Below the pieces are notes generated by a model, which saw nothing but the letters and a program-made list of their open reading frames with translations, was not told the DNA's origin and did not search any database. From positions 186,001 to 250,000 of the forward strand of contig NZ_JOAJ01000007.1 of assembly GCF_000720425.1 (NCBI RefSeq): a stretch of 64,000 nucleotides of DNA, in the 5' to 3' direction. Below are positions 14,645 through 36,327 of the stretch, piece after piece. How positions within the stretch are numbered: position 1 is the first letter of the stretch; each line of letters opens with the position of its first letter. Source of the stretch: Nocardia rhamnosiphila NBRC 108938. GTDB lineage: Bacteria; Actinomycetota; Actinomycetes; Mycobacteriales; Mycobacteriaceae. A program made the translations under genes and the position numbers.

Positions 14645-15196
14645 CTACTCCCGCGTGAGGCGGAGCCGGACCATCGGCAGGCCGGTGCCGCGTTCGTCGA
14701 TCGGTGTACCGAGCGTGTTCTCAATCGCCGGTTTCATGGTTGCCCACGCACGGGGGTGCCTGGCCGCGTAATCGTGTAACGAGGCAGCGACCTCGTCCGG
14801 GCCGAGCACGCTCGCGCGCGCCTCGGCGGGCCCTCGACCGCCGAGCCAGACCCGGACCCGCGGATCGGCTCGCACGTTACGGAACCACTGCGCCCGGGTA
14901 CCGAAACCCGAGACCACCACATACGAATCCGCATCGGGGCGATCGACGACCTCCAGGACCACATAGCGGCGAGCACCGGTCTTTCGCCCGATGTGTTCGA
15001 GCATCAGCGTTCGTGTCCCGAGCAGGAAACCGAGCCGTGCCCGATACAGCCGCACAGGTGCTCGCATCAAGCGGCGGGAGCGTAGCGCCCGAGACGCGAT
15101 GCCGACGAGAGCGCCGGCGGCCGGAGCGGGAAGAGCGGAAGAATGATTCATGAGTACCTCGATCCTGTACGGCTGCGGTTGCTTGAAATCGGTCAT
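14645..15196 (-). CDS. Deazaflavin-dependent nitroreductase (Ddn family)
   Basis: This 183-residue protein has the split-barrel F420-binding pattern of Ddn-like oxidoreductases: RKTGARRYVVLEVVDR, then YVVVSGFGTRAQWFRNVRADPRV, then GPDEVAASLHDYAARHPRAW. It should reduce substrates with F420H2. The start ATG at 15196 overlaps the TetR stop (ATGA), so it is translated with that regulator; an ATG at 15151 would lose the coupling. The regulator is its likely controller. Confidence 0.88.
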   Translation of the reverse strand: MTDFKQPQPYRIEVLMNHSSALPAPAAGALVGIASRALRSRRLMRAPVRLYRARLGFLLGTRTLMLEHIGRKTGARRYVVLEVVDRPDADSYVVVSGFGTRAQWFRNVRADPRVRVWLGGRGPAEARASVLGPDEVAASLHDYAARHPRAWATMKPAIENTLGTPIDERGTGLPMVRLRLTRE

Positions 15197-17444: not shown

Positions 17445-18491
17445 TCACGGCAGATGCGCCTCGAGGAACGAGTACTGGTCCGCTGTCGGGACGATCCGAT
17501 CCAGCGTGAACCCGGCGGAGGCGAGCAGCGCCGCGAATTCGGTGGCGCTGCGCTCCTTGCCTCCGTTGATGGCCAGCATGATCAAATCGATCAGTTTGGT
17601 GGCGTGCGGTTCGTCGCCGGCGGGTACGACACCCTCGATCACCACGAGCCGGGCGCCGGACGTCGCGGCATTCTTGATGGAGTGCAGGATACGTACGCAG
17701 GATTCGTCGTCCCAGTCGTGCAGCACGGCGGCCAATACATACACATCGGCTTGCGGCACGGATTCGAAGAAGTCCCCGGAGACGACCGCGATCCGGTCGG
17801 TCAGCCCGGCCTCCGCGATCTTCTTCTGCGCACCCGGGACCACCTCGGGGAGATCGAACAGAACACCCCTGCGGGTGGGCTCGGATTCCAGCAGGCGAGC
17901 CAGGATGGTGCCGTCGGCCCCACCGATATCGGCAACGACGTCGCCGGCGGGGAGATGGTAGCCGTCGAACATCCGATCGCGTAGCCCGCTGGTGATCGCG
18001 GCCATCGCCCGATTCTGCAGTTCGGCCATCCCGGGGGTGGCAACAATCCAGTCGAAGAAATGTTGACCCAGATACCGCTGGGCGGCCGTTTCACCGGTTC
18101 GGACGGTGTGCAGCAGCTCGCCGAATGGATGGTAGTGCGTCTCCATCCAGTACAGGGCGATATCCCGGACCGAGCCCGGGCGTTCGGCGGACAAAGTCGC
18201 GCCGAGCGGCGTTGTCTCCACCGTATCGTCGCCCAGGTCATGGAAGACCCCGAGCGGCGCCAGACTCCGGACGAGCCGGCGCACCAGTTCGGGCCGTGCA
18301 CCGCAGGTGGCGGCGAGTTCGTCGATGGTACGAGGCCCGTTGTCGAGTTGAGTGGCGATATCGAGTGCGGCCACCGCATACAGTGCCTGCGAGATCTGGA
18401 AACCACCGAGCAGCTGTATCATTGCCGCTCCCACAGGCGGTTGCTGTGGTGCGACGCTGCCGCCGGCCTCGCTCTCGGACATGCTATCCAT
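17445..18491 (-). CDS. SAM-dependent O-methyltransferase (plant/TcmN-type fold)
   Basis: This 348-residue protein has an N-terminal winged-helix dimerisation domain (DIATQLDNGPRTIDELAATC, about residues 44-63) and a C-terminal Rossmann methyltransferase domain with motif I VVADIGGADGTILARLL near residue 185, and HDWDDESCVRIL near residue 259 where the catalytic His of this family lies. Such enzymes methylate hydroxyls of small aromatic or polyketide compounds. It diverges from the flavoprotein gene at 18645, and each gene has its own copy of the TGTAACG-N17-CACTGA promoter. The substrate is unknown. Confidence 0.9.
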   Translation of the reverse strand: MDSMSESEAGGSVAPQQPPVGAAMIQLLGGFQISQALYAVAALDIATQLDNGPRTIDELAATCGARPELVRRLVRSLAPLGVFHDLGDDTVETTPLGATLSAERPGSVRDIALYWMETHYHPFGELLHTVRTGETAAQRYLGQHFFDWIVATPGMAELQNRAMAAITSGLRDRMFDGYHLPAGDVVADIGGADGTILARLLESEPTRRGVLFDLPEVVPGAQKKIAEAGLTDRIAVVSGDFFESVPQADVYVLAAVLHDWDDESCVRILHSIKNAATSGARLVVIEGVVPAGDEPHATKLIDLIMLAINGGKERSATEFAALLASAGFTLDRIVPTADQYSFLEAHLP

Positions 18492-18525: not shown

Positions 18526-18555
18526 TCAGTGGTCGATCACCGGTTCACCGTTACA
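18526..18555 (-). promoter_or_regulatory. ECF-type promoter for the methyltransferase
   Basis: On the minus strand TGTAACG is followed by exactly 17 bases and CACTGA. The -10-like box ends 35 bases before the start codon at 18491. It is one of five exact matches to the same two-box pattern, all between 18.5 and 27.6 kb. Confidence 0.7.
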
Positions 18556-18575
18556 ACCCGCGACCCGAATCGTCC

Positions 18576-18599
18576 GGTGTAACCACCGTCGGTTACACC
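18576..18599. promoter_or_regulatory. Inverted repeat GGTGTAACC-N6-GGTTACACC
   Basis: Perfect 9-base arms sit midway between the two divergent promoters. The arms contain a TGTAAC core like the -35 boxes on either side, but with C in place of the final G and no CACTG box at the right distance. It could be an operator for a regulator or a pair of inactive promoter copies. Confidence 0.55.
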
Positions 18600-18609
18600 G
18601 GGTATCGGA

Positions 18610-18639
18610 TGTAACGGTGAAACCGGTTCGCGGCACTGA
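18610..18639 (+). promoter_or_regulatory. ECF-type promoter for the flavoprotein
   Basis: TGTAACG, 17 bases, then CACTGA. The -10-like box ends only 5 bases before the ATG at 18645, so the transcript would start at or next to the ATG and be leaderless, which is common in this bacterial group. With the site at 18526-18555 it forms a large near-mirror arrangement in a 153-base intergenic gap. Confidence 0.7.
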
Positions 18640-18644
18640 GCGAC

Positions 18645-19349
18645 ATGACGGATTTCGACGACCTGCGAGCCGTGTTCATCAACTGCACCTTGAAGCGGTC
18701 CCCCGAACTCAGCAATACCCAGGGACTCATCGATGCGAGCGCCGCGATCATGGCGAAGAACGACGTGCAGGTCACGCAGGTCCGGGCCATCGACCACGAG
18801 ATCGCCACGGGTGTCCAGCCCGATATGACGGCGCACGGCTGGGCTGTCGACGAGTGGCCGGAGCTACAACGTCAGGTGATGGACGCCCACATCCTGGTGC
18901 TGGCCGGACCGATCTGGCTGGGAGACAACAGTTCGGTGATGAAACGAGTCATCGAACGGTTGTACGGGAACTCGGGGCTGCTCAACGACCATGGTCAGTA
19001 CGCCTACTACGGCCGTGTCGGTGGCTGCCTGCTCACTGGCAACGAGGACGGTGTCAAACATTGCGCGATGAACATCCTGTACAGCTTGCAGCACATCGGG
19101 TACACCATTGCGCCGCAGGCCGACGCGGGGTGGATCGGCGAAGCCGGACCGGGGCCGTCCTATCTGGACCCCGGTTCCGGCGGCCCGGGTAACGACTTCA
19201 CCAACCGCAACACCACATTCATGACGTGGAACCTGATGCACCTCGCTCGTCTGCTGGCGGACAATGGCGGAATACCCGCCCGCGGAAACCAGCGCACCGA
19301 ATGGGACGCGGGTTGTCGATTCGACTTCGAGAATCCTGAGTACCGCTGA
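18645..19349 (+). CDS. Flavodoxin-fold NAD(P)H-dependent oxidoreductase
   Basis: This 234-residue protein has the FMN reductase/flavodoxin fold: an N-terminal strand RAVFINCTLKRSPELSNT binding FMN phosphate, then ILVLAGPIWLGDNSSVMKRV, and GRVGGCLLTGNEDG. It should bind FMN and reduce quinones or related compounds. No ribosome binding site precedes the ATG, which agrees with a leaderless message from the promoter just upstream. It is paired head to head with the methyltransferase under matching promoters. Confidence 0.87.
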   Translation: MTDFDDLRAVFINCTLKRSPELSNTQGLIDASAAIMAKNDVQVTQVRAIDHEIATGVQPDMTAHGWAVDEWPELQRQVMDAHILVLAGPIWLGDNSSVMKRVIERLYGNSGLLNDHGQYAYYGRVGGCLLTGNEDGVKHCAMNILYSLQHIGYTIAPQADAGWIGEAGPGPSYLDPGSGGPGNDFTNRNTTFMTWNLMHLARLLADNGGIPARGNQRTEWDAGCRFDFENPEYR

Positions 19350-19469
19350 ACGGACCAGCAACCTTGTCGACGCTGCCACGCGTCTCGCCGGCGGCCGGCT
19401 GTGCCGCTACACCGTTCTGGGAACGACGCTGACCGATCACGAGCGACGCGGGCGGAATATCGCGTTCGA

Positions 19470-19700
19470 TCAGCGAGACCAGTTCCGGAACGCGGTCAAC
19501 AGGTCCGCACGCACATTCGCGGGCAGCGTCTCCGGTGGCGGTAACTCGCCGACGAGCGCGATGGTTTGCCGGAACTGCGCGATATAGGTTTCGCATCCGT
19601 CGCATTCGGCGAGGTGCGCAACGAAACGTTGCTCGGTGGCCGGGTCCAGCGCGCCGTCGAGGAATGCCGTGACCAGTTCGACCAACTCGTCACAGTTCAC
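19470..19700 (-). CDS. Zinc-type anti-sigma factor (zf-HC2, ZAS)
   Basis: This 76-residue protein has the ZAS signature His29-x3-Cys33-x2-Cys36 (HLAECDGC), plus Cys3 as the possible fourth ligand. It has no membrane segment, so it is a soluble anti-sigma factor of the redox-sensing kind. Its GTG start at 19700 overlaps the stop of the sigma gene (GTGA). It should hold the adjacent sigma factor inactive until zinc or thiol chemistry releases it. Confidence 0.88.
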   Translation of the reverse strand: MNCDELVELVTAFLDGALDPATEQRFVAHLAECDGCETYIAQFRQTIALVGELPPPETLPANVRADLLTAFRNWSR

Positions 19701-20353
19701 CGCCGCACCTCCCCGGTCGCTCCGAAATACTCCTCCAGTCTCGCACGCACGGCCGCCCGGGCACGATGCAGGATAACTCGCTGGTTGCCCGGCGAAATAT
19801 CGAGCAACTCGCAGACCTCCTCGGAGGAATAGCCCTCGATATCGCGCAGCACGAGCAGGACCTGGCTCCGCTCCGGAAGTTCGGACAGCGACTCCCCGAC
19901 CACGCGCAGGACCTCGGCACGCTCGGCGGAACTCTCCGGTTCCGACCACCGGTGCGGTTCCCGCCCGGCTCGCCAATGGCCAGGGTAGGGATCGTCCTCC
20001 GCACGAAACCGGCCGGGCTCGACAGTCGGCCCCTCGTCCGGACCTACCAAACTGCCGAAGGGGATCGTGCGACGCTCACGAATACCCCGTTTTTTGGCGG
20101 TGTTCACCAGAATCCTGAACACCCAGGTTTTCAGCGACGAGCGGCCTTCGAACCCGTCGATGCCGCGAATCACCGCGACCCAGACGTCCTGCACGACTTC
20201 CTCGGCCGAAGCATTGGTGGACACGAAGGACCGCGCCAACCGCAACATCGCCGGCGACCATTGGTCCAGAATCGTTTCGAACGCCGTTTCGTCGCCCCTG
20301 CGGAGCCGGTCCGCCAGATCACCCTCCGGTGTGACGAGGCTGTCGCGACCCAC
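19697..20353 (-). CDS. ECF RNA polymerase sigma factor
   Basis: This 218-residue sigma-70-family protein has region 2 (AMLRLARSFVSTNASAEEVV, then VWVAVIRGIDGF) and region 4 (LPERSQVLLVLRDIEGYSSE, then NQRVILHRARAAVRARL). GTG 20353 is chosen because GAGGAG stands 5 bases before it. It is co-translated with the anti-sigma factor. The protein at 34609 is a close paralogue with the same LKTWVFRILVNTAKKRG segment. No TGTAACG site precedes it, so it does not appear to control itself by that promoter. Confidence 0.93.
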   Translation of the reverse strand: MGRDSLVTPEGDLADRLRRGDETAFETILDQWSPAMLRLARSFVSTNASAEEVVQDVWVAVIRGIDGFEGRSSLKTWVFRILVNTAKKRGIRERRTIPFGSLVGPDEGPTVEPGRFRAEDDPYPGHWRAGREPHRWSEPESSAERAEVLRVVGESLSELPERSQVLLVLRDIEGYSSEEVCELLDISPGNQRVILHRARAAVRARLEEYFGATGEVRR

Positions 20354-20718
20354 CTGTTCTCCTCGATACGCACCGTTTCGAGCCTGTCGATACCCCACCC
20401 GTCACCGAATGTCTCATCGGAACAGTTCGGGGGTCCGGCAGGGCACACTGTCCGGACCCGGCGGTCGGCGCCGAGTTCGGGTGCATACACAGCCCAGGGT
20501 TCCGGAGTCACGTCGCGCACCCGACTCCGGGAGGTTACCAGGGGGTCATACCGCGCGCTCGTCGCCGACTTCCGGTACGGCGTTCTGGGCGGCAGGGGGC
20601 CAAGCGATGACGAGCAGAACGGGATTCGCGCGCAGACCACAGGTCCGGACTCGTCACCGGCGCCCTGATCGGGGCGGCATCAGTTGCCGTGCACCACGAC
20701 CTTCCCGACCGGTTCGGG
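20354..20718. other. Intergenic stretch with no supported gene
   Basis: It lies upstream of the sigma gene on the minus strand and past the end of the hydrolase gene. I see no reading frame of protein character and no recognisable promoter box or hairpin. Confidence 0.5.
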
Positions 20719-21498
20719 TCATGCGGACGGTAGATCGGCGGCGATATACCGCCCGGCCCACGTCGCGAGGATCTGCGCACAGTACGTGGCGTCGGCGCGA
20801 TCGGTGAGCAGGTGGTCGGCGCCGTCGAGGCATACGAACGACTTCGGGTGGGCGGCGCTGTCGTAGATTTGCCGGGCATTGTCCACGCCGACGATGCTGT
20901 CCTGCGGCGAGTGCAGGATCAGCAGCGCACGGCGCAATCGTGCGATACGGGCCGGCTGGTTCTGCTGACGCAGATCTTCGACGAATTCCCGGCGTATCCG
21001 GATTTCCCGGCCACCCACCGAGACCATCGATTCACCGAGGACCTCGATCACCTCCGATTCAGCGCTGAACAGGTGCTCGATATGGCGAGGTTCAGCGGGC
21101 GCTCCGATCGTGGCGACCGCCCTGACCTCCGGAATCAGGCCCGCACCCGCGAGAACGGCCGCACCACCGAGCGAATGCCCGATCAGTAGGTCGGGAGGCG
21201 CCAGGACCGTGCGCAGATGCGCTGCGGCGCAGACGAGATCGCCGATATCGGTGCCGAAGGTCGTATCGGCGAAATCTCCGCCGGAGGCGCCGATACCAGT
21301 GCAATCGAAACGCAGTACAGCGATCTGGCGATGGACGAGTGCGCGCGCAATACTGATCGCGGCCGCCGCGTTCTTACCGCAGGTGAAGCAGTGCGCAAAC
21401 AGTGCCACCGCCCTCGGCTCTCCCGTTTCGGGAAGGTCCAGCAGCCCGGCGAGCCTGGTACCGGTGGCGCCGTCGAAGAACACGCGTTCGCGGTTCAC
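20719..21498 (-). CDS. Alpha/beta hydrolase (OsmC-partner type)
   Basis: This 259-residue hydrolase resembles the hydrolase half of the alpha/beta-hydrolase/OsmC fusion proteins: AVALFAHCFTCGKNAAAA near the start, FDCTGIGASGGDFADT, nucleophile elbow IGHSLGGAA, and HSPQDSIVGVDNA followed by GADHLL for the acid and His. The OsmC half, a peroxide-detoxifying domain, is absent. It has its own TGTAACG-type promoter 41 bases upstream. A role in peroxide or thiol-ester metabolism is inferred from the family only. Confidence 0.85.
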   Translation of the reverse strand: MNRERVFFDGATGTRLAGLLDLPETGEPRAVALFAHCFTCGKNAAAAISIARALVHRQIAVLRFDCTGIGASGGDFADTTFGTDIGDLVCAAAHLRTVLAPPDLLIGHSLGGAAVLAGAGLIPEVRAVATIGAPAEPRHIEHLFSAESEVIEVLGESMVSVGGREIRIRREFVEDLRQQNQPARIARLRRALLILHSPQDSIVGVDNARQIYDSAAHPKSFVCLDGADHLLTDRADATYCAQILATWAGRYIAADLPSA

Positions 21499-21538
21499 CG
21501 CGCGCCGGCCACTGTAGTCGACCCCGAATTCATAGCGA

Positions 21539-21568
21539 CCAGTGCCGATGCGGGGCCCGATCGTTACA
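21539..21568 (-). promoter_or_regulatory. ECF-type promoter for the hydrolase
   Basis: On the minus strand TGTAACG, exactly 17 bases, then CACTGG. It lies in the 99-base gap between the stop of the membrane protein gene (21598) and the hydrolase start (21498), and its -10-like box ends 41 bases before that start. Confidence 0.7.
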
Positions 21569-21597
21569 CCTCGGCGCCGACCGCCGCGGCTGGGCGG

Positions 21598-23079
21598 TCA
21601 TGCGACGAAGACCGGGATCAGCGCTACCTGGAAGGCGATCAGGCTCCACAACGCCGGTGCGGTGCCGAGCACCTGCTCGTACCTGGCCAGTACCCGTTCC
21701 CGGGCCGTCCGGCTGCGGGTGAGATACCAAGGGGCAACACGCTGCTCCAAGCGCTGATAGACGATACCGAGGACCGCCCCGTACGCCACGTGCCCGATCA
21801 GTGAGGGAAAGGATGCAGCGAGTGCGGGCGCCGACCAATCCGGTGCCGAGCCGAGCAGCAGCGGCAGCAGGGTGAGGTTGCCGAGCACCCACCACAGGAA
21901 CCCGTACGAGGCGCCCCAACCGATGCCCGAGGCGGCGTCGAAGCTGCAACCGCGGAAGAAGATCGCGTAGGTGATGCCGATGAAAACCGAGATCATCACG
22001 TGCACGATGAACCCGACGAATGCCGAACCCGATTCCACCAGGGCGGCCACCCGCGGCAAGAAGCCCACCGCCACCATCACCCCGGTGAAGACGACGCCGC
22101 CCGCCGTACCGGCAACGATCCCGTGCAGAACTGGGAGGATACCGCCGGTGGTCAGGCGGCCTGCCTGCTCGGCCCGCACATCGTCGGCCCGTATCCGGCG
22201 CACGATTCCTTCGATCGCACCGAGCACCGCCGCGGTGCCGGCACCGAGCAGCAGATAACCGGGCAGCGTGGACATCGCCGCACGTGCCGCGGAGATCGAC
22301 CAGTCCAGCCGGTCGCCCGCGCGGAGTGAGTGCAGGGTCAGGCCGGCGGTGATCCACCAGACGAATCCGTACCCCACGCCGCGGATCAGCGCGGGGCCGG
22401 TGCTCTCCGGCCGGGCGCCGAACAGCAGCGCATACCCCGCGCCTGCGAACGACCCGACGATCACCGACGTGTAGCCGGACTCCCGCATCGACGGAAAGAC
22501 GGCGGCCAGGACCGCACCGACGATCATCCCGGCCGTCACCGCCGCTACCAGCGTGCGGGTTTCCACGGTGCGTGGTGGCGCATCGGCGATCCGGCGCGCC
22601 ACCAACGCGAACACGGCCGCGGTGACCGATCCGTACAGCAGATGGCCGACGAGGCTCGGGAGCAGTTGCTGTGCGTCCAGGATCGTCCAGCGCACCGGCT
22701 CACCGAGCACCAGAGGAAGGATGGTGAGCGGCCCGGCGAGCCACCACACGGCCCCGTAGATCAGTCCCCAGAACAGCAGTTCGCTCGGGGCAGTCCGCTG
22801 CCGCAGCACCAGGAGACCGAAACCCGCGCCGATGATCGCCGCGATCACCAGGTGCACCAGGAAGCCGACGATCGGCGAATCGGCGCGCACGATGGCGGCG
22901 ACGGTAGGCAGAAAACCGATCGAGATCATCACCGCACCGAAGGCGAGTCCACCGGCGAGACCGGCGAGTGCGCCGACGCCTGCGCCGGTCCGCGCGCCGA
23001 GTTCCGCGCCCCGGACACCGGCCGGTGTGTCGATGCTGTTCGTGGTCTCGGTGGCGGGCAACAGGGCCGGGTCAGACAT
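21598..23079 (-). CDS. Membrane protein with internally duplicated module
   Basis: This 493-residue membrane protein has about twelve hydrophobic segments. It is built of two similar halves: the first carries SIGFLPTVAAIVRADSPIVG then FLVHLVIAAIIGAGF, and the second carries AVGFLPRVAALVESGSAFVG then FIVHVMISVFIGITY. Each half ends with a SLIGHVAYG-like phrase. The N-terminus of the flavoprotein upstream shows a third, more distant copy. The start ATG at 23079 overlaps the end of that flavoprotein gene. Family not recognised; the linkage suggests a membrane platform for the dehydrogenase. Confidence 0.75.
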   Translation of the reverse strand: MSDPALLPATETTNSIDTPAGVRGAELGARTGAGVGALAGLAGGLAFGAVMISIGFLPTVAAIVRADSPIVGFLVHLVIAAIIGAGFGLLVLRQRTAPSELLFWGLIYGAVWWLAGPLTILPLVLGEPVRWTILDAQQLLPSLVGHLLYGSVTAAVFALVARRIADAPPRTVETRTLVAAVTAGMIVGAVLAAVFPSMRESGYTSVIVGSFAGAGYALLFGARPESTGPALIRGVGYGFVWWITAGLTLHSLRAGDRLDWSISAARAAMSTLPGYLLLGAGTAAVLGAIEGIVRRIRADDVRAEQAGRLTTGGILPVLHGIVAGTAGGVVFTGVMVAVGFLPRVAALVESGSAFVGFIVHVMISVFIGITYAIFFRGCSFDAASGIGWGASYGFLWWVLGNLTLLPLLLGSAPDWSAPALAASFPSLIGHVAYGAVLGIVYQRLEQRVAPWYLTRSRTARERVLARYEQVLGTAPALWSLIAFQVALIPVFVA

Positions 23080-24874
23080 GGTGATCCTTTGTCGTGGCCG
23101 GGACCGTCGCGGTGCCCGACGAAGTGAGCGCGATATCCCTCGGGAAACCCAGATCCAGCAGCCAGTCCGCGAGTACACGCAGCCGCTTCTCCGTGCCGGG
23201 CAGTTTGCTCAAATAGACGGCCCGCCACAGAACCCAGCCGGCCAGTCCCGATACCGGCCGACCCCACACCAGGCCGGCCGCCCGCCGGTGTCCCAGCGAG
23301 ACGAGCACCCCAAGCCCGCCGAAGCGGAACGGCCGGGGCCGGCCGCCGGTGATCGCGGCGGCCACATTGTCCGCCACGACCTTCCCCTCTCGGATCGCGT
23401 GCTGTGCCGTGGGCGGATGAAAGGCGCCGGGGTCCCCGGTGTCCGGAATGCGCGCGCAGTCACCGATCGCCCAGACACCGTCCAGTTCGGGCACCCGCAG
23501 GTACTCGTCCACGGCCAGCGGCCCGGTCCGGCCGGCGACGATACTGCCGAGTAGCGGGTTGGGCCGGTTACCGGCCGTCCACGCGAGGGTGCCGGTGGCG
23601 ACCACCCCGTCGTCGGACAACCGGACACTGCCGGCATCCGCGCCGGTGACCCGGACGCCGAGCCGGAATTCGATTCCGCGCCGGGCGAGCGTGTACCGGG
23701 CGTAATCACCGAGTTCCGCGGGCAGTTCCGGTAGCAACCGATCACCCGAATGCGCGAGCATGAAGCGCGGAGACAGATCGTGCAGGCGCGGATAATAGTG
23801 GAGCACGTCGTGCACCAGGTCATACAGTTCGGCGATCAGTTCGGTGCCGGCGAAACCGCCACCGGCCACGACGAAGGTCAGCAGCCGCTGCTGCTCGACG
23901 GCATCCGGTTCCCGATCCGCCTGCTCCAGCGCGGCGAGCACATGGTCGCGCAGCCGGTTGGCATCGTCGATGGATTTCATCGCGAAGGCGTGTTCGGCGA
24001 CGCCCGGGAGATCGAAGAAATGGGCCACCCCGCCGACAGCGAGGATCAGTGCGTCGTAGGGCACCTGCCGCCTTCCGCGATTACCGGCGGCGACCTCCAG
24101 CGTGCGGGCAGTGGTATCCACCGACTCGACCCGCCCGTGCAGGAAAGTCGCGTGCCGCAGGGCGGCGCGCACCGGCGCGCTGACGTGCCGGGCTTCGAGC
24201 GCGCTGGAGGCGACACCCACCAGCAGCGGCGTGAACAATAGGAAGTTGGATTCGCTGATCACCGTCACCTCGGCCCGGAGGCCGCGGGCCAGCAGAGCGT
24301 CCAGCCGCCGGCCTGCACCGAGACCGCCGAAACCGCCTCCGACCACCACGATATGAGGCCGCCGGGGGGCCGTTTCGGCGGTGCGTGACCGTCGGCGCAG
24401 CAGTGCGGTCGCCCGGAACAGCACGATCCCCGCCACCGCGCCCAGCAGGGTGGCACGGATCAGGTCGTCGAAGGTAGCCGCCGCGTCACCGCTGGACCAG
24501 CGAGGGATCGTGCCCGCCAGTAACGGCACTGCGGTCAGCTGCCACCCGGCCCAGTCCAGTAGACCGGCCAGCACGCCGACCGCGAAAGAGGACCCGAGGC
24601 TCTGCCGATGGGCCCCCGTCAGGAGGCCGAGGATTGCCCCCAGCACCACCGCATGCACCGTCCAGGACAACCAGCCCTGTTCTGCCGCCGCGGCCGGGAC
24701 CGCGACGAGTACACCGGCGACCGCACCGCTCACTGCGCCCGCGACCAGCCGGCCGGGCGGCGTGAGCGCACCGGCCGGTGTCGTCATCACCGGCATCATC
24801 GCGAACAACGCATCCAGGACAGGCGAGCGGTCGACGGCGCCACCGCTCGCCGGACGCGCGAGACATCCGTCCAT
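23072..24874 (-). CDS. Type II NADH dehydrogenase-like flavoprotein with N-terminal membrane module
   Basis: The C-terminal 430 residues are an NDH-2-type FAD/NAD(P) oxidoreductase: FAD motif IVVVGGGFGGLGAG near residue 175, a second Rossmann motif TFVVAGGGFAGTELIAEL, and VWAIGDCARIPD near the FAD-binding Asp. The first 160 residues are membrane-spanning and match the module found twice in the next gene (TVHAVVLGAILGLLTG, PLLAGTIPRW). The fusion would tie NADH oxidation directly to the membrane. The ATG at 24874 follows AGGAAAACTC; starts further upstream exist but lack a ribosome site. A TGTAACG-type promoter lies 135 bases upstream. Confidence 0.88.
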   Translation of the reverse strand: MDGCLARPASGGAVDRSPVLDALFAMMPVMTTPAGALTPPGRLVAGAVSGAVAGVLVAVPAAAAEQGWLSWTVHAVVLGAILGLLTGAHRQSLGSSFAVGVLAGLLDWAGWQLTAVPLLAGTIPRWSSGDAAATFDDLIRATLLGAVAGIVLFRATALLRRRSRTAETAPRRPHIVVVGGGFGGLGAGRRLDALLARGLRAEVTVISESNFLLFTPLLVGVASSALEARHVSAPVRAALRHATFLHGRVESVDTTARTLEVAAGNRGRRQVPYDALILAVGGVAHFFDLPGVAEHAFAMKSIDDANRLRDHVLAALEQADREPDAVEQQRLLTFVVAGGGFAGTELIAELYDLVHDVLHYYPRLHDLSPRFMLAHSGDRLLPELPAELGDYARYTLARRGIEFRLGVRVTGADAGSVRLSDDGVVATGTLAWTAGNRPNPLLGSIVAGRTGPLAVDEYLRVPELDGVWAIGDCARIPDTGDPGAFHPPTAQHAIREGKVVADNVAAAITGGRPRPFRFGGLGVLVSLGHRRAAGLVWGRPVSGLAGWVLWRAVYLSKLPGTEKRLRVLADWLLDLGFPRDIALTSSGTATVPATTKDHHV

Positions 24875-25008
24875 CTCCGGTGAGTTTTCCTGGGGCGCGA
24901 GGTCGTGAGGTGGGTCATGACTTGTGCTTCCTTCGAGGTTCCGGGATCGGGTTCGCCGCGGCACGTAACGAATCGGCCGGGTGCGGGGTCGATATGGGCA
25001 GTTGCCGA

Positions 25009-25038
25009 CCAGTGGTGCCGATCGGCCACCGCGTTACA
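25009..25038 (-). promoter_or_regulatory. ECF-type promoter for the NDH-2/membrane operon
   Basis: On the minus strand TGTAACG, exactly 17 bases, then CACTGG. It lies 135 bases before the flavoprotein start and 22 bases before the ATG of the divergent molybdopterin gene, so it may influence both. The distance implies a long untranslated leader for the flavoprotein or an unrecognised upstream start. Confidence 0.65.
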
Positions 25039-25059
25039 CCCCAGGAATGGAGCAGTCCG

Positions 25060-26274
25060 ATGAAAGAGCCCGACCGCGCCGCGCCCGCGGCCGAACCGCC
25101 GGTGGAGCGGGAACAGAGCTCGCCCGAGCCCGGTCTGCTGTTACCCCGCGTCGTCACCGACCGGATCTCGCCCGCGCGTTCGGCGGCCGTGGCGTCCCGG
25201 GTGGGTATCGCGCTGGGTGTCGCCGTCGCGATCTGTTTCCTCACCGGGTTGATCAGTCATTGGGTGCAGCACCCACCGGCGTGGTTCTGGTGGCCGGCCA
25301 ACCCGGTGTGGTTGTATCGGCTCACGCAGGGGGCGCATGTGGTGTCGGGTGTGGTGGCGATTCCCCTGCTGCTGGTGAAGCTGTGGGCGGTGTTTCCCAG
25401 ACTGTTCGCGCGTCCCCTCATCGGAAACCCGCTGCACCTGCTCGAACGCGGTTCCATCGCCGTACTCGTGGGTTCGATGATCTTCCAGCTGATCACCGGC
25501 CTTTTCAACACGGCCCAGTTCTATCCCTGGAAGTTCTTCTTCACCACCACCCACTACGCCATGGCCTTCGTCTCCGTCGGCGCGCTCGCGGTCCATCTCG
25601 CAGTCAAGCTTCCGGTGGTACGCGCCGCGCTGGCCCGGCCGGACTCCGGAAGCGAGAAGCCGCCGCCGGACGAGGCCGGTATCGCCGCCCGCCGCAGCGT
25701 GCTGGTCGCGGCCGGCGCCGCGGCCGTCGTCGCCGGAGTCGCCATAGCCGGGCAATCGGTGCCGCTACTACGCCGTATCTCGGTCCTCGCACCGCGCAGT
25801 GGTGAAGGGCCACAGGGGCTTCCGGTGAATCGCACGGCGAATCAGGCGGGCGTGCTGGAGCTGGCACAGGATGCCGGATACCGCCTGGAGGTCATTGTGG
25901 GCGACCGGACACGCCGATTCACCTACGCCGAGCTGGTGGCACTGCCTCAGACCGAAGCCGAGGTTCCGCTGGCATGTGTGGAGGGCTGGAGCGTCTCGGC
26001 GCAGTGGTCCGGTATCCGGGTGCGCGATCTACTCGCCGCGGTGGGCGACTACCGCGGCGGCGATGTCGAATTCCGTTCGCTCGAGCCCAGCGGAATCTAC
26101 AACCGGTCCCTGCTCCCCCAGACCCATGTGGTCGATGCGTCGACGCTGGTGGCACTGCGGCTCAACGGCGAGGAACTCGACCTCGACCACGGTTATCCGT
26201 GCCGGCTGATCGCACCGACGCGACCCGGCGTACTCCAGACCAAATGGCTCTCGGCGATCGAGGTGCGGGCATGA
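25060..26274 (+). CDS. Membrane molybdopterin oxidoreductase with cytochrome b-like domain
   Basis: In this 404-residue protein, residues 45-200 form a four- or five-span cytochrome b561-like domain with several His (LISHWVQHPPAWFWW, LTQGAHVVSG, THYAMAF, AVHLAVKL), then a further span and a C-terminal sulfite-oxidase/YedY-like molybdopterin domain. The metal ligand is Cys306 in LACVEGWSV, and YPCRLIAPTRPGVLQTKW is the usual end. A single chain that both binds molybdopterin and carries haem spans would pass electrons to or from quinone. GGAG precedes the ATG by 8 bases. It diverges from the NDH-2 operon and overlaps the next gene. Confidence 0.88.
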   Translation: MKEPDRAAPAAEPPVEREQSSPEPGLLLPRVVTDRISPARSAAVASRVGIALGVAVAICFLTGLISHWVQHPPAWFWWPANPVWLYRLTQGAHVVSGVVAIPLLLVKLWAVFPRLFARPLIGNPLHLLERGSIAVLVGSMIFQLITGLFNTAQFYPWKFFFTTTHYAMAFVSVGALAVHLAVKLPVVRAALARPDSGSEKPPPDEAGIAARRSVLVAAGAAAVVAGVAIAGQSVPLLRRISVLAPRSGEGPQGLPVNRTANQAGVLELAQDAGYRLEVIVGDRTRRFTYAELVALPQTEAEVPLACVEGWSVSAQWSGIRVRDLLAAVGDYRGGDVEFRSLEPSGIYNRSLLPQTHVVDASTLVALRLNGEELDLDHGYPCRLIAPTRPGVLQTKWLSAIEVRA

Positions 26275-26678
26275 CGGCCACACGAGTACTGCTCCTACTC
26301 GGCGGAATCTGGCTCGGCTGGTACGGGATCACCCTGGTGCTGGAGCTGGGACCGGCCGACCAGATCTCGCTGGCCTGGTGGTTCGCCGGTGGAATCCTGC
26401 TGCACGACGCGGTGATCGCACCGTTGTGTGCCGGCCTCGGCTTGGCCGCCCGGCGTATCCTCCCCGCGAACTGGTGGGCGCCGGCCACCGTCGGCGCAGT
26501 CTGCACGCTCACGCTGGCCGTACTCGCAATACCCGTGGTGGGACGTGCGGGCGCGAACCCGGCGAACCCCACCGTCCTCGACCGCGATTTCGGGACCGGC
26601 CTGCTGGTGGCGATCAGCGTCGTATGGGCACTGGTAGCCCTGGATATCGGCCGGCGGTGGTACCGCGCGCGCCGGTGA
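26271..26678 (+). CDS. Small integral membrane protein
   Basis: This 135-residue protein has four hydrophobic segments (starting VLLLLGGIWLGWYG, then WWFAGGILLHDAVI, TVGAVCTLTLAVLA, LLVAISVVWALVA). Its ATG overlaps the stop of the molybdopterin protein (ATGA), so the two are made together and it is probably a partner or assembly subunit. Family not recognised. Confidence 0.75.
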   Translation: MTATRVLLLLGGIWLGWYGITLVLELGPADQISLAWWFAGGILLHDAVIAPLCAGLGLAARRILPANWWAPATVGAVCTLTLAVLAIPVVGRAGANPANPTVLDRDFGTGLLVAISVVWALVALDIGRRWYRARR

Positions 26679-26922
26679 CCGCGGGCCGATCGCGGTCCGT
26701 CGGGGGCAGCCACGCACCGGCGGTTCGATCATCGCGGGCCGACCTCGTAACGCTTCGGGCCGGGATCGACACAGTGCTCGGTCGCCCGGCTCGTATCGGC
26801 CGCAGTGCGACGCGATGGCGGTAAGACACCGTGCCGGTCGGCACAGTTACCACCGCGGTTGCCGGGACCGTCGGACGAACTACCCCTCATCAGTTCGCCC
26901 GGCGGTCACCGGGCCACCCGTC

Positions 26923-27426
26923 TCAGGCGGGATCGAGCGCGGCGGCGCCGAACGAGACGCTGAAACGCTCACACCAGACAGTCACCGTGCGCAGAATCGT
27001 CAGATCGGCCTCGGCGGGCACGACGTAGTTCTGATTGCCCTCGTTGCCCTTCAACGCGCCGAGATCGACATATTCGCCGTCGTCGAGATTGCGGCCCAGT
27101 CCTGGCTGCACCGGCTGATCGCTGAGCCACACGCGCAGGGCGGGACCATCCGAGGTGCGCAGATCGGTGAGCCGCAGTACGACCTCGCCGTCGGGCAGTT
27201 CCTGGAGTGTAACCGCCCCCGAGGTCGAATGCTCCTGCGAGATAAATGATCCCGCGGCGATCGTACGTACCGTGCCCTCGTCGGGGGCGACGATCGCGGC
27301 TTCGTCGACGCGGACGTTCGTGAACACCCGCCAGGGCTGGAACAGGTAGAGGCCGACCGCCAGGATGACGGCCAGACCCAGCACGAGCACCGAGAGGACA
27401 CGGCGCCGGGCAGGAGTGAAGGCCAT
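26923..27426 (-). CDS. DM13-domain membrane-anchored protein
   Basis: This 167-residue protein has one N-terminal membrane anchor (residues 10-30) and an extracytoplasmic DM13 domain: SFISQEHSTSGAVTLQELP, LRVWLSDQPV, GEYVDLGALKGNEGNQNYV, and the end VTVWCERFSVSFGAA with the single conserved Cys. DM13 is thought to be a redox or electron-transfer domain, which fits the neighbouring redox genes. It has its own TGTAACG-type promoter 61 bases upstream. Confidence 0.9.
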   Translation of the reverse strand: MAFTPARRRVLSVLVLGLAVILAVGLYLFQPWRVFTNVRVDEAAIVAPDEGTVRTIAAGSFISQEHSTSGAVTLQELPDGEVVLRLTDLRTSDGPALRVWLSDQPVQPGLGRNLDDGEYVDLGALKGNEGNQNYVVPAEADLTILRTVTVWCERFSVSFGAAALDPA

Positions 27427-27486
27427 GAGTTCTTCCGTTCTGTGAACGATTCGGCACGCGTCTCGTCGCGGATACGTGCCATGGGC

Positions 27487-27516
27487 CCAGTGGATCGGAC
27501 AGTGCGACTCGTTACA
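27487..27516 (-). promoter_or_regulatory. ECF-type promoter for the DM13 gene
   Basis: On the minus strand TGTAACG, exactly 17 bases, then CACTGG, ending 61 bases before the ATG at 27426. It lies between the DM13 gene and the stop of the synthase gene at 27563, so it serves the DM13 gene alone. Confidence 0.7.
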
Positions 27517-34608: not shown

Positions 34609-35271
34609 GTGACCACCGACGCCGACCTCCCTGCCGACGATATTCTGGTCAACCGGTTGCGAAGCGGCGACGAAGCCGCGTTCGCACTGATCCTGGATAC
34701 CTGGTCGGGGTCGATGCTGCGACTGGCGCAATCGTTCGTATCCACACCCGCCTCCGCCGAGGAAGTTCTCCAGGACACCTGGATAGCAGTCATTCGCGGC
34801 CTGGACGGCTTCGAAGGCCGCGCCGCACTCAAGACCTGGGTATTCCGCATCTTGGTGAACACCGCGAAGAAACGCGGCATCAAGGAACGCCGGACCATTC
34901 CTTTCACCAGCTTGATCCCCGAGGACAGCGGCCCGGCAGCCGGTCCCACGCGTTTCCAGACCTCCGACGACCACTACCCCGGACGCCGGCACAGCGGCCG
35001 GGAGCCGCACCGGCGATCCGATCCGGAGAACGAGGCCGAACGCACCGAAATACGTTCGGTCATTGCGGCAGCGATGACCGAACTGCCGGATCGCAGCCGG
35101 ATCGTTCTGACGCTGAGAGACGCGGAAGGCTACTCCTCCGACGAGGTCTGCGCGCTGCTCGGCATCACCGCGGGTAACCAGCGCGTCATCCTGCATCGCG
35201 CCCGTGCCACCGTCCGGTCCCGCCTGGAAACCTACTTCACCGCGACCGGGGATACGTTTGCTCGTCGTTGA
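34609..35271 (+). CDS. ECF RNA polymerase sigma factor, paralogue without anti-sigma gene
   Basis: This 220-residue sigma factor has region 2 (SMLRLAQSFVSTPASAEEVL, then TWIAVIRGLDGF) and region 4 (LPDRSRIVLTLRDAEGYSSD, then NQRVILHRARATVRSRL). GAGGAG precedes the GTG start by 9 bases. It is clearly a paralogue of the sigma factor at 19697, sharing LKTWVFRILVNTAKKRGI followed by KERRTIPF, but no ZAS gene follows: the next gene runs the other way. It may be freely active, or share the anti-sigma factor at 19470. Confidence 0.92.
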   Translation: MTTDADLPADDILVNRLRSGDEAAFALILDTWSGSMLRLAQSFVSTPASAEEVLQDTWIAVIRGLDGFEGRAALKTWVFRILVNTAKKRGIKERRTIPFTSLIPEDSGPAAGPTRFQTSDDHYPGRRHSGREPHRRSDPENEAERTEIRSVIAAAMTELPDRSRIVLTLRDAEGYSSDEVCALLGITAGNQRVILHRARATVRSRLETYFTATGDTFARR

Positions 35272-35278
35272 CCTCGGC

Positions 35279-36241
35279 TCATCCCGGGGGCCGGACGAGT
35301 ACCAGTGCGTAGTCACCACCCGAGGCCATCCACATCCGGTCTATCTCGAGATCGACCGCGGTGAACTCGGATTCGAGCTGTCCGGGCCCGAACGTTGCCA
35401 CCGTCTCGGTGCGAATCTCGGTGCCCGCGGGCAGCTCGACCGTCATACCGAGCGCGTCGATCGAAACCCGCTGTCGGCAGCCGATGCGCAGCCCGAGTTC
35501 CAGTTGTGCCGGCTCCGGGTTCCACGCCACGGTGGGATCGAACAGCTCGGGGACGAAGTTCGCGCCGAACTCCCGGTCAACCACGTGCAGGATATTGCGG
35601 GTGAATGCGGCATTCACCCCGAACTCGTCGATACGGGCCGCGACGAGCCGCTGTGGGTCACGCACCATATCGACCCCGATCAACAGGGCATCATCCCATT
35701 CCATCGTGTCACGCAGCCGACGCAGCACATCGCGACGCTCGCCGGCGGTCATACCGCCGAATGTCCCGCCGAGCAGGGTGATCAGCCGGCCACCACGCGC
35801 GGGCAGCAGGTGCACCTCACTGGCGAAATCGGCCACCAGCGCCCGGATCGCCAGTCGCGGATTGTGCCGGGCGATCGAGGCGGCGCTCGCCACCAGGGCC
35901 TCCCGGCTCTGCTCCACAGGGGTATAGACCTGCAGCGTTGCGGCGAGCCCCGCGACCAACATCCGCGACACCTCCGGCGTACGTGGTCCCAGTTCGAGTA
36001 ATGTGACCGCGCCGGTCGCACCCGCGATCGCCGCGGCACGCGTGGCAAGGATTTCCGATTCACACCGGGCCGTATAGAACTGCGGCAACCTCGCCATATC
36101 CTGCCGCAACCGGATACCACGATGGTCGAACAGCAACCGGGACGGCAGCCGGGGCGGCCGTACGGACAACCCTGCGGCGGTCTCCCTCCGCAACAGGCCG
36201 CCCTGCTCGTTCTCGGTCAGTAATCGGTCGATCAACAACAT
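35279..36241 (-). CDS. EgtD-like SAM-dependent methyltransferase
   Basis: This 320-residue protein has EgtD-family features: RLPQFYTARCESEILATR near residue 50, the SAM motif TLLELGPRTPE, VADFASEVHLLP, LLGGTFGGMTAGERRDVL, and GVNAAFTRNILHVV. EgtD trimethylates histidine in ergothioneine synthesis; the substrate here is uncertain because motifs differ and no egtA, egtB or egtC is nearby. ATG 36241 follows GGAGAG; a TTG two codons earlier is less likely. A weaker version of the TGTAACG promoter stands 57 bases upstream. Its end converges with the sigma gene 7 bases away. Confidence 0.82.
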   Translation of the reverse strand: MLLIDRLLTENEQGGLLRRETAAGLSVRPPRLPSRLLFDHRGIRLRQDMARLPQFYTARCESEILATRAAAIAGATGAVTLLELGPRTPEVSRMLVAGLAATLQVYTPVEQSREALVASAASIARHNPRLAIRALVADFASEVHLLPARGGRLITLLGGTFGGMTAGERRDVLRRLRDTMEWDDALLIGVDMVRDPQRLVAARIDEFGVNAAFTRNILHVVDREFGANFVPELFDPTVAWNPEPAQLELGLRIGCRQRVSIDALGMTVELPAGTEIRTETVATFGPGQLESEFTAVDLEIDRMWMASGGDYALVLVRPPG

Positions 36242-36297: not shown

Positions 36298-36327
36298 CCC
36301 TGTTCCGTTGGACGGGAAACCGTTACA
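36298..36327 (-). promoter_or_regulatory. Possible ECF-type promoter, weaker match
   Basis: On the minus strand TGTAACG is perfect, but the second box is AACAGG with 16-base spacing rather than CACTGR with 17. The box lies about 57 bases before the EgtD-like start. It is the weakest of the six sites and may need the paralogous sigma factor or be inactive. Confidence 0.4.

Follow-up and report, generated by a model that had tools for sequence, protein, structure and literature searches.

A TGTAACG-N17-CACTG motif confined to one island of Nocardia rhamnosiphila: a probable promoter of an ECF sigma factor with a predicted zinc anti-sigma partner

The 64,000-nucleotide stretch of Nocardia rhamnosiphila NBRC 108938 analysed here (contig NZ_JOAJ01000007.1, positions 186,001 to 250,000; hereafter the window) contains the genes of two sigma factors of the extracytoplasmic function (ECF) type, ECF1 and ECF2, together with five copies of a two-box motif, and raises the question of whether these copies are promoters and, if so, which sigma factor reads them. 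The initial annotation had described them as a new ECF-type promoter defining a local regulon that either sigma factor might read. On scanning the window we found TGTAACG-N17-CACTG five times, with a spacer of exactly 17 bases in each copy, at the places and on the strands originally given, where each match had been drawn one base longer (a further A or G). Judged from the list of open reading frames (ORFs) and the sequence, all five are intergenic, lie upstream of the genes that had been named for them and are oriented towards those genes (Table 1). The whole genome (7,663,723 bases in 93 contigs), for which such a search had been proposed, matches TGTAACG-N16-18-CACTG only at these five sites, all within one 9-kb island, as against two matches for the reversed control pattern, and dinucleotide shuffles of the window gave a mean of 0.01 matches, with none of 100 shuffles reaching five. 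When one mismatch was allowed in the N17 pattern, the genome yielded ten matches, namely the five sites and five others, and the reversed pattern 39. Bare TGTAACG had been placed only at the five sites and at 36321-36327; the latter copy is real, but another at 14775-14781 (+) had been missed. It lies within a gene on the opposite strand, has no -10 box CACTG and was dismissed as a promoter.

The motif recurs beside the sigma factor gene in other members of the genus. Exact matches were present in 36 of 150 Nocardia genomes, that of N. rhamnosiphila included (48 matches in total, 43 of them outside its own genome), and a homologue of ECF1 (E up to 1e-50) in 21 of 148. Comparison of the listing of motif matches with that of ECF homologues placed 13 of the 43 matches from the 149 other genomes within 4 kb of an ECF homologue; they are spread over 12 of the 20 other genomes with such a homologue. 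The 21 genus loci chosen by the sigma factor alone (0.41 Mb) held 13 exact matches in 12 loci; with 500 permuted motifs the mean was 0.13, the highest count 7, and none reached 13. Placing GCACT after TGTAACG, a permuted -10 box that finds the same sites one base off, gave seven matches in the genus loci and four in the wider loci. Of all spacings from 10 to 25 scanned in the ECF loci, only 16 and 17 occurred, bar one match at 24. Among orthologues of the NDH-2 gene, those of loci L071 and L086 have exact sites upstream and that of L068 has CGTAACG; L086 and L087 were picked by the motif itself and do not enter into the permutation and ATG-distance counts.

Similar results were obtained outside the genus. 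Of 70 further loci collected, the scan took in 26 from other organisms (L093-L118) and not the 39 more distant ones; the remaining five (L088-L092), being duplicates of L069, L067, L070, L071 and L075, were not double-counted. An exact site was found in 6 of the 26 ECF loci, those of three Streptosporangium, one other Streptosporangiaceae strain, Marmoricola and Aeromicrobium (permuted motifs: mean 0.08, maximum 5, 0/500 reaching 6). In 14 whole outside genomes YGTAACG-N16/17-CACTR had 20 matches, compared with 49 for the reversed control; eight of the 20 adjoin an ECF gene, in eight of the genomes, and such a match is the sole one in five. We also examined 27 loci of 3.6 kb, drawn from six further genera of the family and representing 27 of 33 non-Nocardia matches, and found YGTAACG-N16/17-CAC within 1.5 kb of the ECF gene in 22 of them, a count to be read with the facts that this relaxed pattern was chosen after the earlier loci and that the family loci had been viewed with a looser pattern beforehand; 300 permutations gave a mean of 0.66 and a maximum of 5. 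Several of these family sites, which occur in four of the six genera, have the full CACTG. Of the window genes, the anti-sigma gene recurs most often as a neighbour in the genus and wider loci, and the flavoprotein gene comes second. Because the five exact copies are found in the island only and relatives share the signal beside the same type of sigma factor gene, the motif is very probably an on-switch read by that sigma factor. That the copies might instead have arisen by recent duplication, or form a functionless cluster by chance, is hardly conceivable: they do all lie within 9 kb, and sites 1 and 2 share extra bases (15-nt arms, 93% alike), but no resemblance was apparent by eye in the spacers of the remaining three, and like sites stand before orthologous genes in other loci, while an origin by chance was ruled out by the shuffle, reversed-pattern and permutation controls (genus, wider and family loci).

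The placement of the motif with respect to start codons is likewise promoter-like. An ATG follows CACTG by 5-8 nt, mostly by 6, in 11 of 24 linked exact sites, compared with 3.9% of random positions in the same loci. Before the flavoprotein gene the ATG is found 6-7 nt past the box in the window and in L065, L066, L069, L070 and L076, with differing intervening letters and, in L065 and L076, with CGTAACG as the -35 box, as would be the case if the transcripts were leaderless and began at the ATG. Taken with the confinement to one island, the association with an ECF gene across genera and the 16/17-base spacer, this frequent placement bears out the original description of an ECF-type promoter serving a local regulon. 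At site 3 (window 21498-21540, -) the ATG 6 nt past CACTG begins an ORF of 12 codons, the TGA of which shares bases with the GTG start codon of the hydrolase gene, possibly a leaderless upstream ORF with coupled translation, and mini-ORFs ending in ATGA are also present downstream of the sites in L094, L095 and L101. A further variant, CGTAACG-N17-CACAG, lies between convergent genes in the window (26746, +) and in L076 (10417, -), directed antisense into the DM13 gene, and is a possible antisense or small-RNA promoter.

Co-conservation by itself does not distinguish a sigma factor from a linked regulator, and the sites could be taken as operators bound by an ordinary transcription factor encoded by a gene that accompanies the ECF gene. 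A TGTAAC core is indeed contained in a perfect 11-bp inverted repeat (CCGGTGTAACC / GGTTACACCGG) at 18574-18601, between the divergent sites 1 and 2. However, this repeat was not seen in the 110 nt upstream of the L076 flavoprotein gene, and the sites themselves consist of two unlike boxes at 16/17 spacing, asymmetric, gene-directed and often followed by an ATG at the distance described above. Their -35 box is that of known ECF promoters, and in 18 of the 22 site-bearing family loci a comparison limited to window homologues turned up the ECF and anti-sigma genes and no others. We regard the operator explanation as quite improbable.

If the sites are ECF promoters, two readers are at hand. PF04542 and PF08281 scored above cut-off in both ECF1 and ECF2, which comprise sigma regions 2 and 4 only, and TIGR02937 gave 90.1 and 84.7 bits, respectively (cut-off 42.9). 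In a tree of 48 of the 50 ECF copies (two short ones were dropped), nine of the ten rows of the ECF1 clade (support 93/91, not starred) had an exact site within 6 kb and the tenth a relaxed one of the HGTAACG-N16/17-CWCTG type, although the placement of ECF1 inside this clade is weak (91/7); six of the seven rows of the ECF2 clade (99/94) had neither. The exact-site label changed 8 times on the tree as against 15.2 times in shuffles, of which 0/500 were as low. ECF1 is the better candidate reader because nine of ten rows in its clade, but only one of seven in that of ECF2, have an exact site within this distance. Moreover, the two genomes with a broken ECF1 both show altered boxes. In G074, where ECF1 is a C-terminal part with a stop, the DM13 boxes are TATAACG/CACTC and the flavoprotein -35 box is CGTAACG, and no box was seen in the 140 nt before its 74% identical methyltransferase gene; in G075 what is left of ECF1 is a C-terminal remnant ahead of the anti-sigma gene, and the 92% identical methyltransferase has CACAG in place of CACTG.

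The alternative that the promoters are read by ECF2, or by both sigma factors about equally, deserves attention. ECF1 and ECF2 have the same region 4.2 segment, GNQRVILHR, and are nearly identical in region 2; because of the shared segment cross-reading between the two is likely. An exact site is present in one ECF2-clade locus, L074, and the EgtD-like gene next to ECF2 is preceded by a TGTAACG box in the window as well as in G074 and G097. The -10 box near ECF2 is, however, AAC(A/C)G and not CACTG, and with the near absence of exact or relaxed sites from its clade we consider equal or sole reading by ECF2 unlikely. When GNQRVILHR was aligned with sigma factors from the PDB, it was found to have Val where those have Ser. 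In SigD of Corynebacterium glutamicum, the residue reported to touch the T of GTAAC is a Val, and SigH has Ser there (PMC6338062); by analogy the Val of GNQRVILHR may correspond to that of SigD, which would fit the -35 box. The sequences compared offered no explanation for the -10 box CACTG.

The different -10 box near ECF2 raises the possibility of a second promoter class. The candidate site before the EgtD-like gene of the window has counterparts in L075 and L076. TGTAACG-N16/17-AACMGRG had seven matches in 148 Nocardia genomes, four of them beside ECF genes (before the EgtD-like gene in the N. rhamnosiphila genome, G074 and G097, and near the DM13 gene in G134), the pattern having been derived from three of these four. 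TGTAACG was absent from 20 kb of the ECF2-clade loci L072 and L073. ECF2 may therefore share the -35 box TGTAACG with ECF1 but use a different -10 box, a comparison of sequences that is suggestive only. In a wider and distinctly tentative proposal, an actinobacterial group of ECF sigma factors with zinc anti-sigma proteins (in Nocardia, genera of its family, Streptosporangiaceae and Nocardioidaceae) might control a compact redox island through an undescribed promoter class, TGTAACG-N16/17-CAC(T/C) with CACTG as its core, and a duplicated paralogue might have kept the -35 box and moved to AAC(A/C)G at -10, so that two sigma factors with near-identical DNA-reading sequence would split one island.

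Several observations weigh against the assignment of the sites to ECF1 and must be considered together with the ECF2-clade locus L074. Among the 20 other Nocardia genomes with an ECF homologue, eight lack an exact site inside the 4-kb limit; four of the eight carry only an ECF2-clade copy (G075, G078, G079 and G097), and the other four have variant boxes (CGTAACG in G116 and G148, CTCTG in G020 and G035). Six of the 14 whole outside genomes lack an ECF-linked match, and there the reversed pattern was the more frequent of the two; five of the 27 family loci, including all three loci of two genera, have no site. In G073 (L086) no ECF homologue was found (E up to 1e-20), and yet an exact site still stands before an NDH-2 gene broken into two frames and another overlaps a piece of the DM13 gene; the hydrolase, NDH-2 and DM13 genes of this island match in pieces only, and tblastn at E up to 10 returned mostly noise. 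Within the window no exact site is directed towards the molybdopterin gene, whose orthologues in L081 and L082 do have one upstream, and none precedes the ECF1/anti-sigma genes, so that autoregulation is not seen. As to the spacing, 3 of 18 unlinked matches examined (of 30) also have an ATG at 5-8 nt, and sites before orthologous genes are not independent of one another, which puts the significance of the ATG spacing below the raw count. With these points set against the evidence above, we still hold it to be quite probable that the five sites are ECF1 promoters and that a zinc anti-sigma protein restrains ECF1 until oxidation or another signal releases it and the redox set is switched on.

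The features concerned are listed in Table 1. No membrane segment was seen by eye in the 76-aa anti-sigma protein.

Table 1. Promoter-like sites and genes of the island (window coordinates)
Feature	Position	Strand	Remarks
Site 1	18527..18555	-	35 nt 5' of O-methyltransferase ATG
Site 2	18610..18638	+	5' of FMN reductase-like flavoprotein; CACTG to ATG 6 nt (leaderless placement)
Site 3	21540..21568	-	5' of alpha/beta hydrolase
Site 4	25010..25038	-	5' of NDH-2/membrane operon
Site 5	27488..27516	-	5' of DM13 protein, 61 nt from its ATG
Candidate ECF2 promoter, TGTAACG-N16-GAACAGGG	36298..36327	-	before EgtD-like gene; -35 at 36321-36327
ECF1, ECF sigma factor (Sigma70_r2 + Sigma70_r4_2)	19697..20398	-	likeliest reader of the sites
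Anti-sigma gene, 76 aa, zf-HC2, Cys-His-Cys-Cys	19470..19700	-	4-nt overlap with ECF1
O-methyltransferase (Methyltransf_2 + dimerisation domain)	17445..18491	-	downstream of site 1
FMN_red-type flavoprotein	18645..19349	+	downstream of site 2
Alpha/beta hydrolase (Hydrolase_4)	20719..21498	-	downstream of site 3
NDH-2-like flavoprotein (Pyr_redox_2, NDH2_C)	23072..24919	-	downstream of site 4; alternative start GTG 24964
DUF1440 membrane protein	21598..23079	-	second gene of site 4 operon
Molybdopterin oxidoreductase-domain protein	25060..26274	+	divergent gene
DM13 (electron transfer) protein	26923..27426	-	downstream of site 5
ECF2, ECF1 paralogue, 65% identical	34609..35271	+	
EgtD-like histidine methyltransferase	35279..36241	-	PF10017; TIGR03438 201 bits, below cut-off 290.9

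Our working model for this island is that in unstressed cells the small zinc anti-sigma protein would hold ECF1, and that the sigma factor would be freed when the zinc-binding cysteines of this protein are oxidised, or by some other cytoplasmic signal. Freed ECF1 would then start transcription about 6-7 nt past CACTG, turning on a redox set made up of the flavin reductase-like protein, NDH-2 with its membrane partner, the DM13 protein, the O-methyltransferase and the hydrolase; the flavoprotein mRNA would start at the ATG itself and be leaderless. The gene adjoining ECF1 is predicted to encode the cognate anti-sigma partner. All 27 family loci have an anti-sigma homologue next to the ECF gene, as do many, not all, of the genus and wider loci, and the proteins compared are mostly of 75-90 aa with an N-terminal Cys and HxxxCxxC, the Cys being at position 3 in the window protein. 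In RsrA a Cys-His-Cys-Cys (CHCC) set binds zinc, and its N-terminal Cys is reported to be necessary if oxidation is to free the sigma factor (PMC4960319); zinc motifs are reported to be more abundant in soluble anti-sigma factors of this class, which the authors link to intracellular redox sensing (PMC7406223). A cytoplasmic thiol or redox trigger is favoured on account of this chemistry and these motifs, and by analogy is our best guess. The anti-sigma protein of L070 (10369) has Gly for the last zinc-ligand Cys (CDGG); redox control may be weakened there. A CTCTG-type site is found before the anti-sigma gene in L077 and L078, and an exact site before a second anti-sigma-like gene in L093 (11131), L094 (11202), L095 (11274) and L101 (11178), which suggests negative feedback in these relatives.

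For a sigma/anti-sigma pair present in several actinobacterial genera, the analysis provides a ready promoter rule, a probable reader and a short target list. ECF1 and ECF2 may also serve as an example of how paralogous sigma factors might diverge at the -10 box, and the set of promoter, sigma factor and anti-sigma factor could serve as an orthogonal switch. Among the titles and opening lines of abstracts listed from the open-licence literature, we found neither TGTAACG-N17-CACTG as an ECF promoter nor CACTG as a -10 box, and among the papers listed no study of this sigma/anti-sigma pair came to light. SigD of Mycobacterium tuberculosis has a GTAACG-like box. The ECF classification of 2021 reportedly predicts promoter motifs group by group, so that TGTAACG/CACTG may already be listed there.

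Known systems resemble the present one in part. For C. glutamicum SigD, also an actinobacterial ECF sigma factor and one whose targets include cell-envelope genes, the reported -35 box GTAAC(A/G) is matched by the window sites, whereas the reported -10 box is GAT and that of the window is CACTG in all five copies; the likeness to ECF1 is one of the -35 box (PMC6338062). The ECF16 proteins BcrS of Brucella melitensis and EcfF of Bradyrhizobium japonicum are described with a -35 box TGTAAC or GTAAC and a CGAA-like -10 box, with an EcfF start point 6 bp past the latter (PMC8315932, PMC3420878). The -35 box, about the same spacing and redox-related targets are thus common to ECF16 and the island, but ECF16 is proteobacterial, its -10 box is CGAA and not CACTG, and it is paired with a six-helix membrane DUF1109 protein, unlike the 76-aa zf-HC2 anti-sigma protein of the window. 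The initial description of the promoter as new consequently holds for the -10 box, which differs from those of SigD and ECF16, and not for the -35 box.

An ECF gene near one whose product has a sulfite-oxidase-type molybdopterin domain is shared with the sulfite-responsive RpoE4/SigE sigma factors, which are alphaproteobacterial and in whose description the string GTAAC is absent from the main text (PMC6527743). With SigR-RsrA of Streptomyces the window pair shares the Cys-His-Cys-Cys zinc set, including the N-terminal Cys (PMC4960319), and the SigH promoter of C. glutamicum is given as GGAA(T/C)/GTT (PMC6338062). The RsrA model TIGR03988 scored 35.7 bits with the window anti-sigma protein, below its cut-off of 62.5. 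GGAA(T/C)/GTT is the SigR-type promoter as well, and in this respect the window sites, with TGTAACG/CACTG, are unlike those of SigR-RsrA (ECF12). An ECF sigma factor with a zinc anti-sigma protein and a local regulon is therefore already known as a kind, as is the -35 box from SigD and ECF16, and the regulon of ECF1-type sites described here is a well-supported new instance of that known kind.

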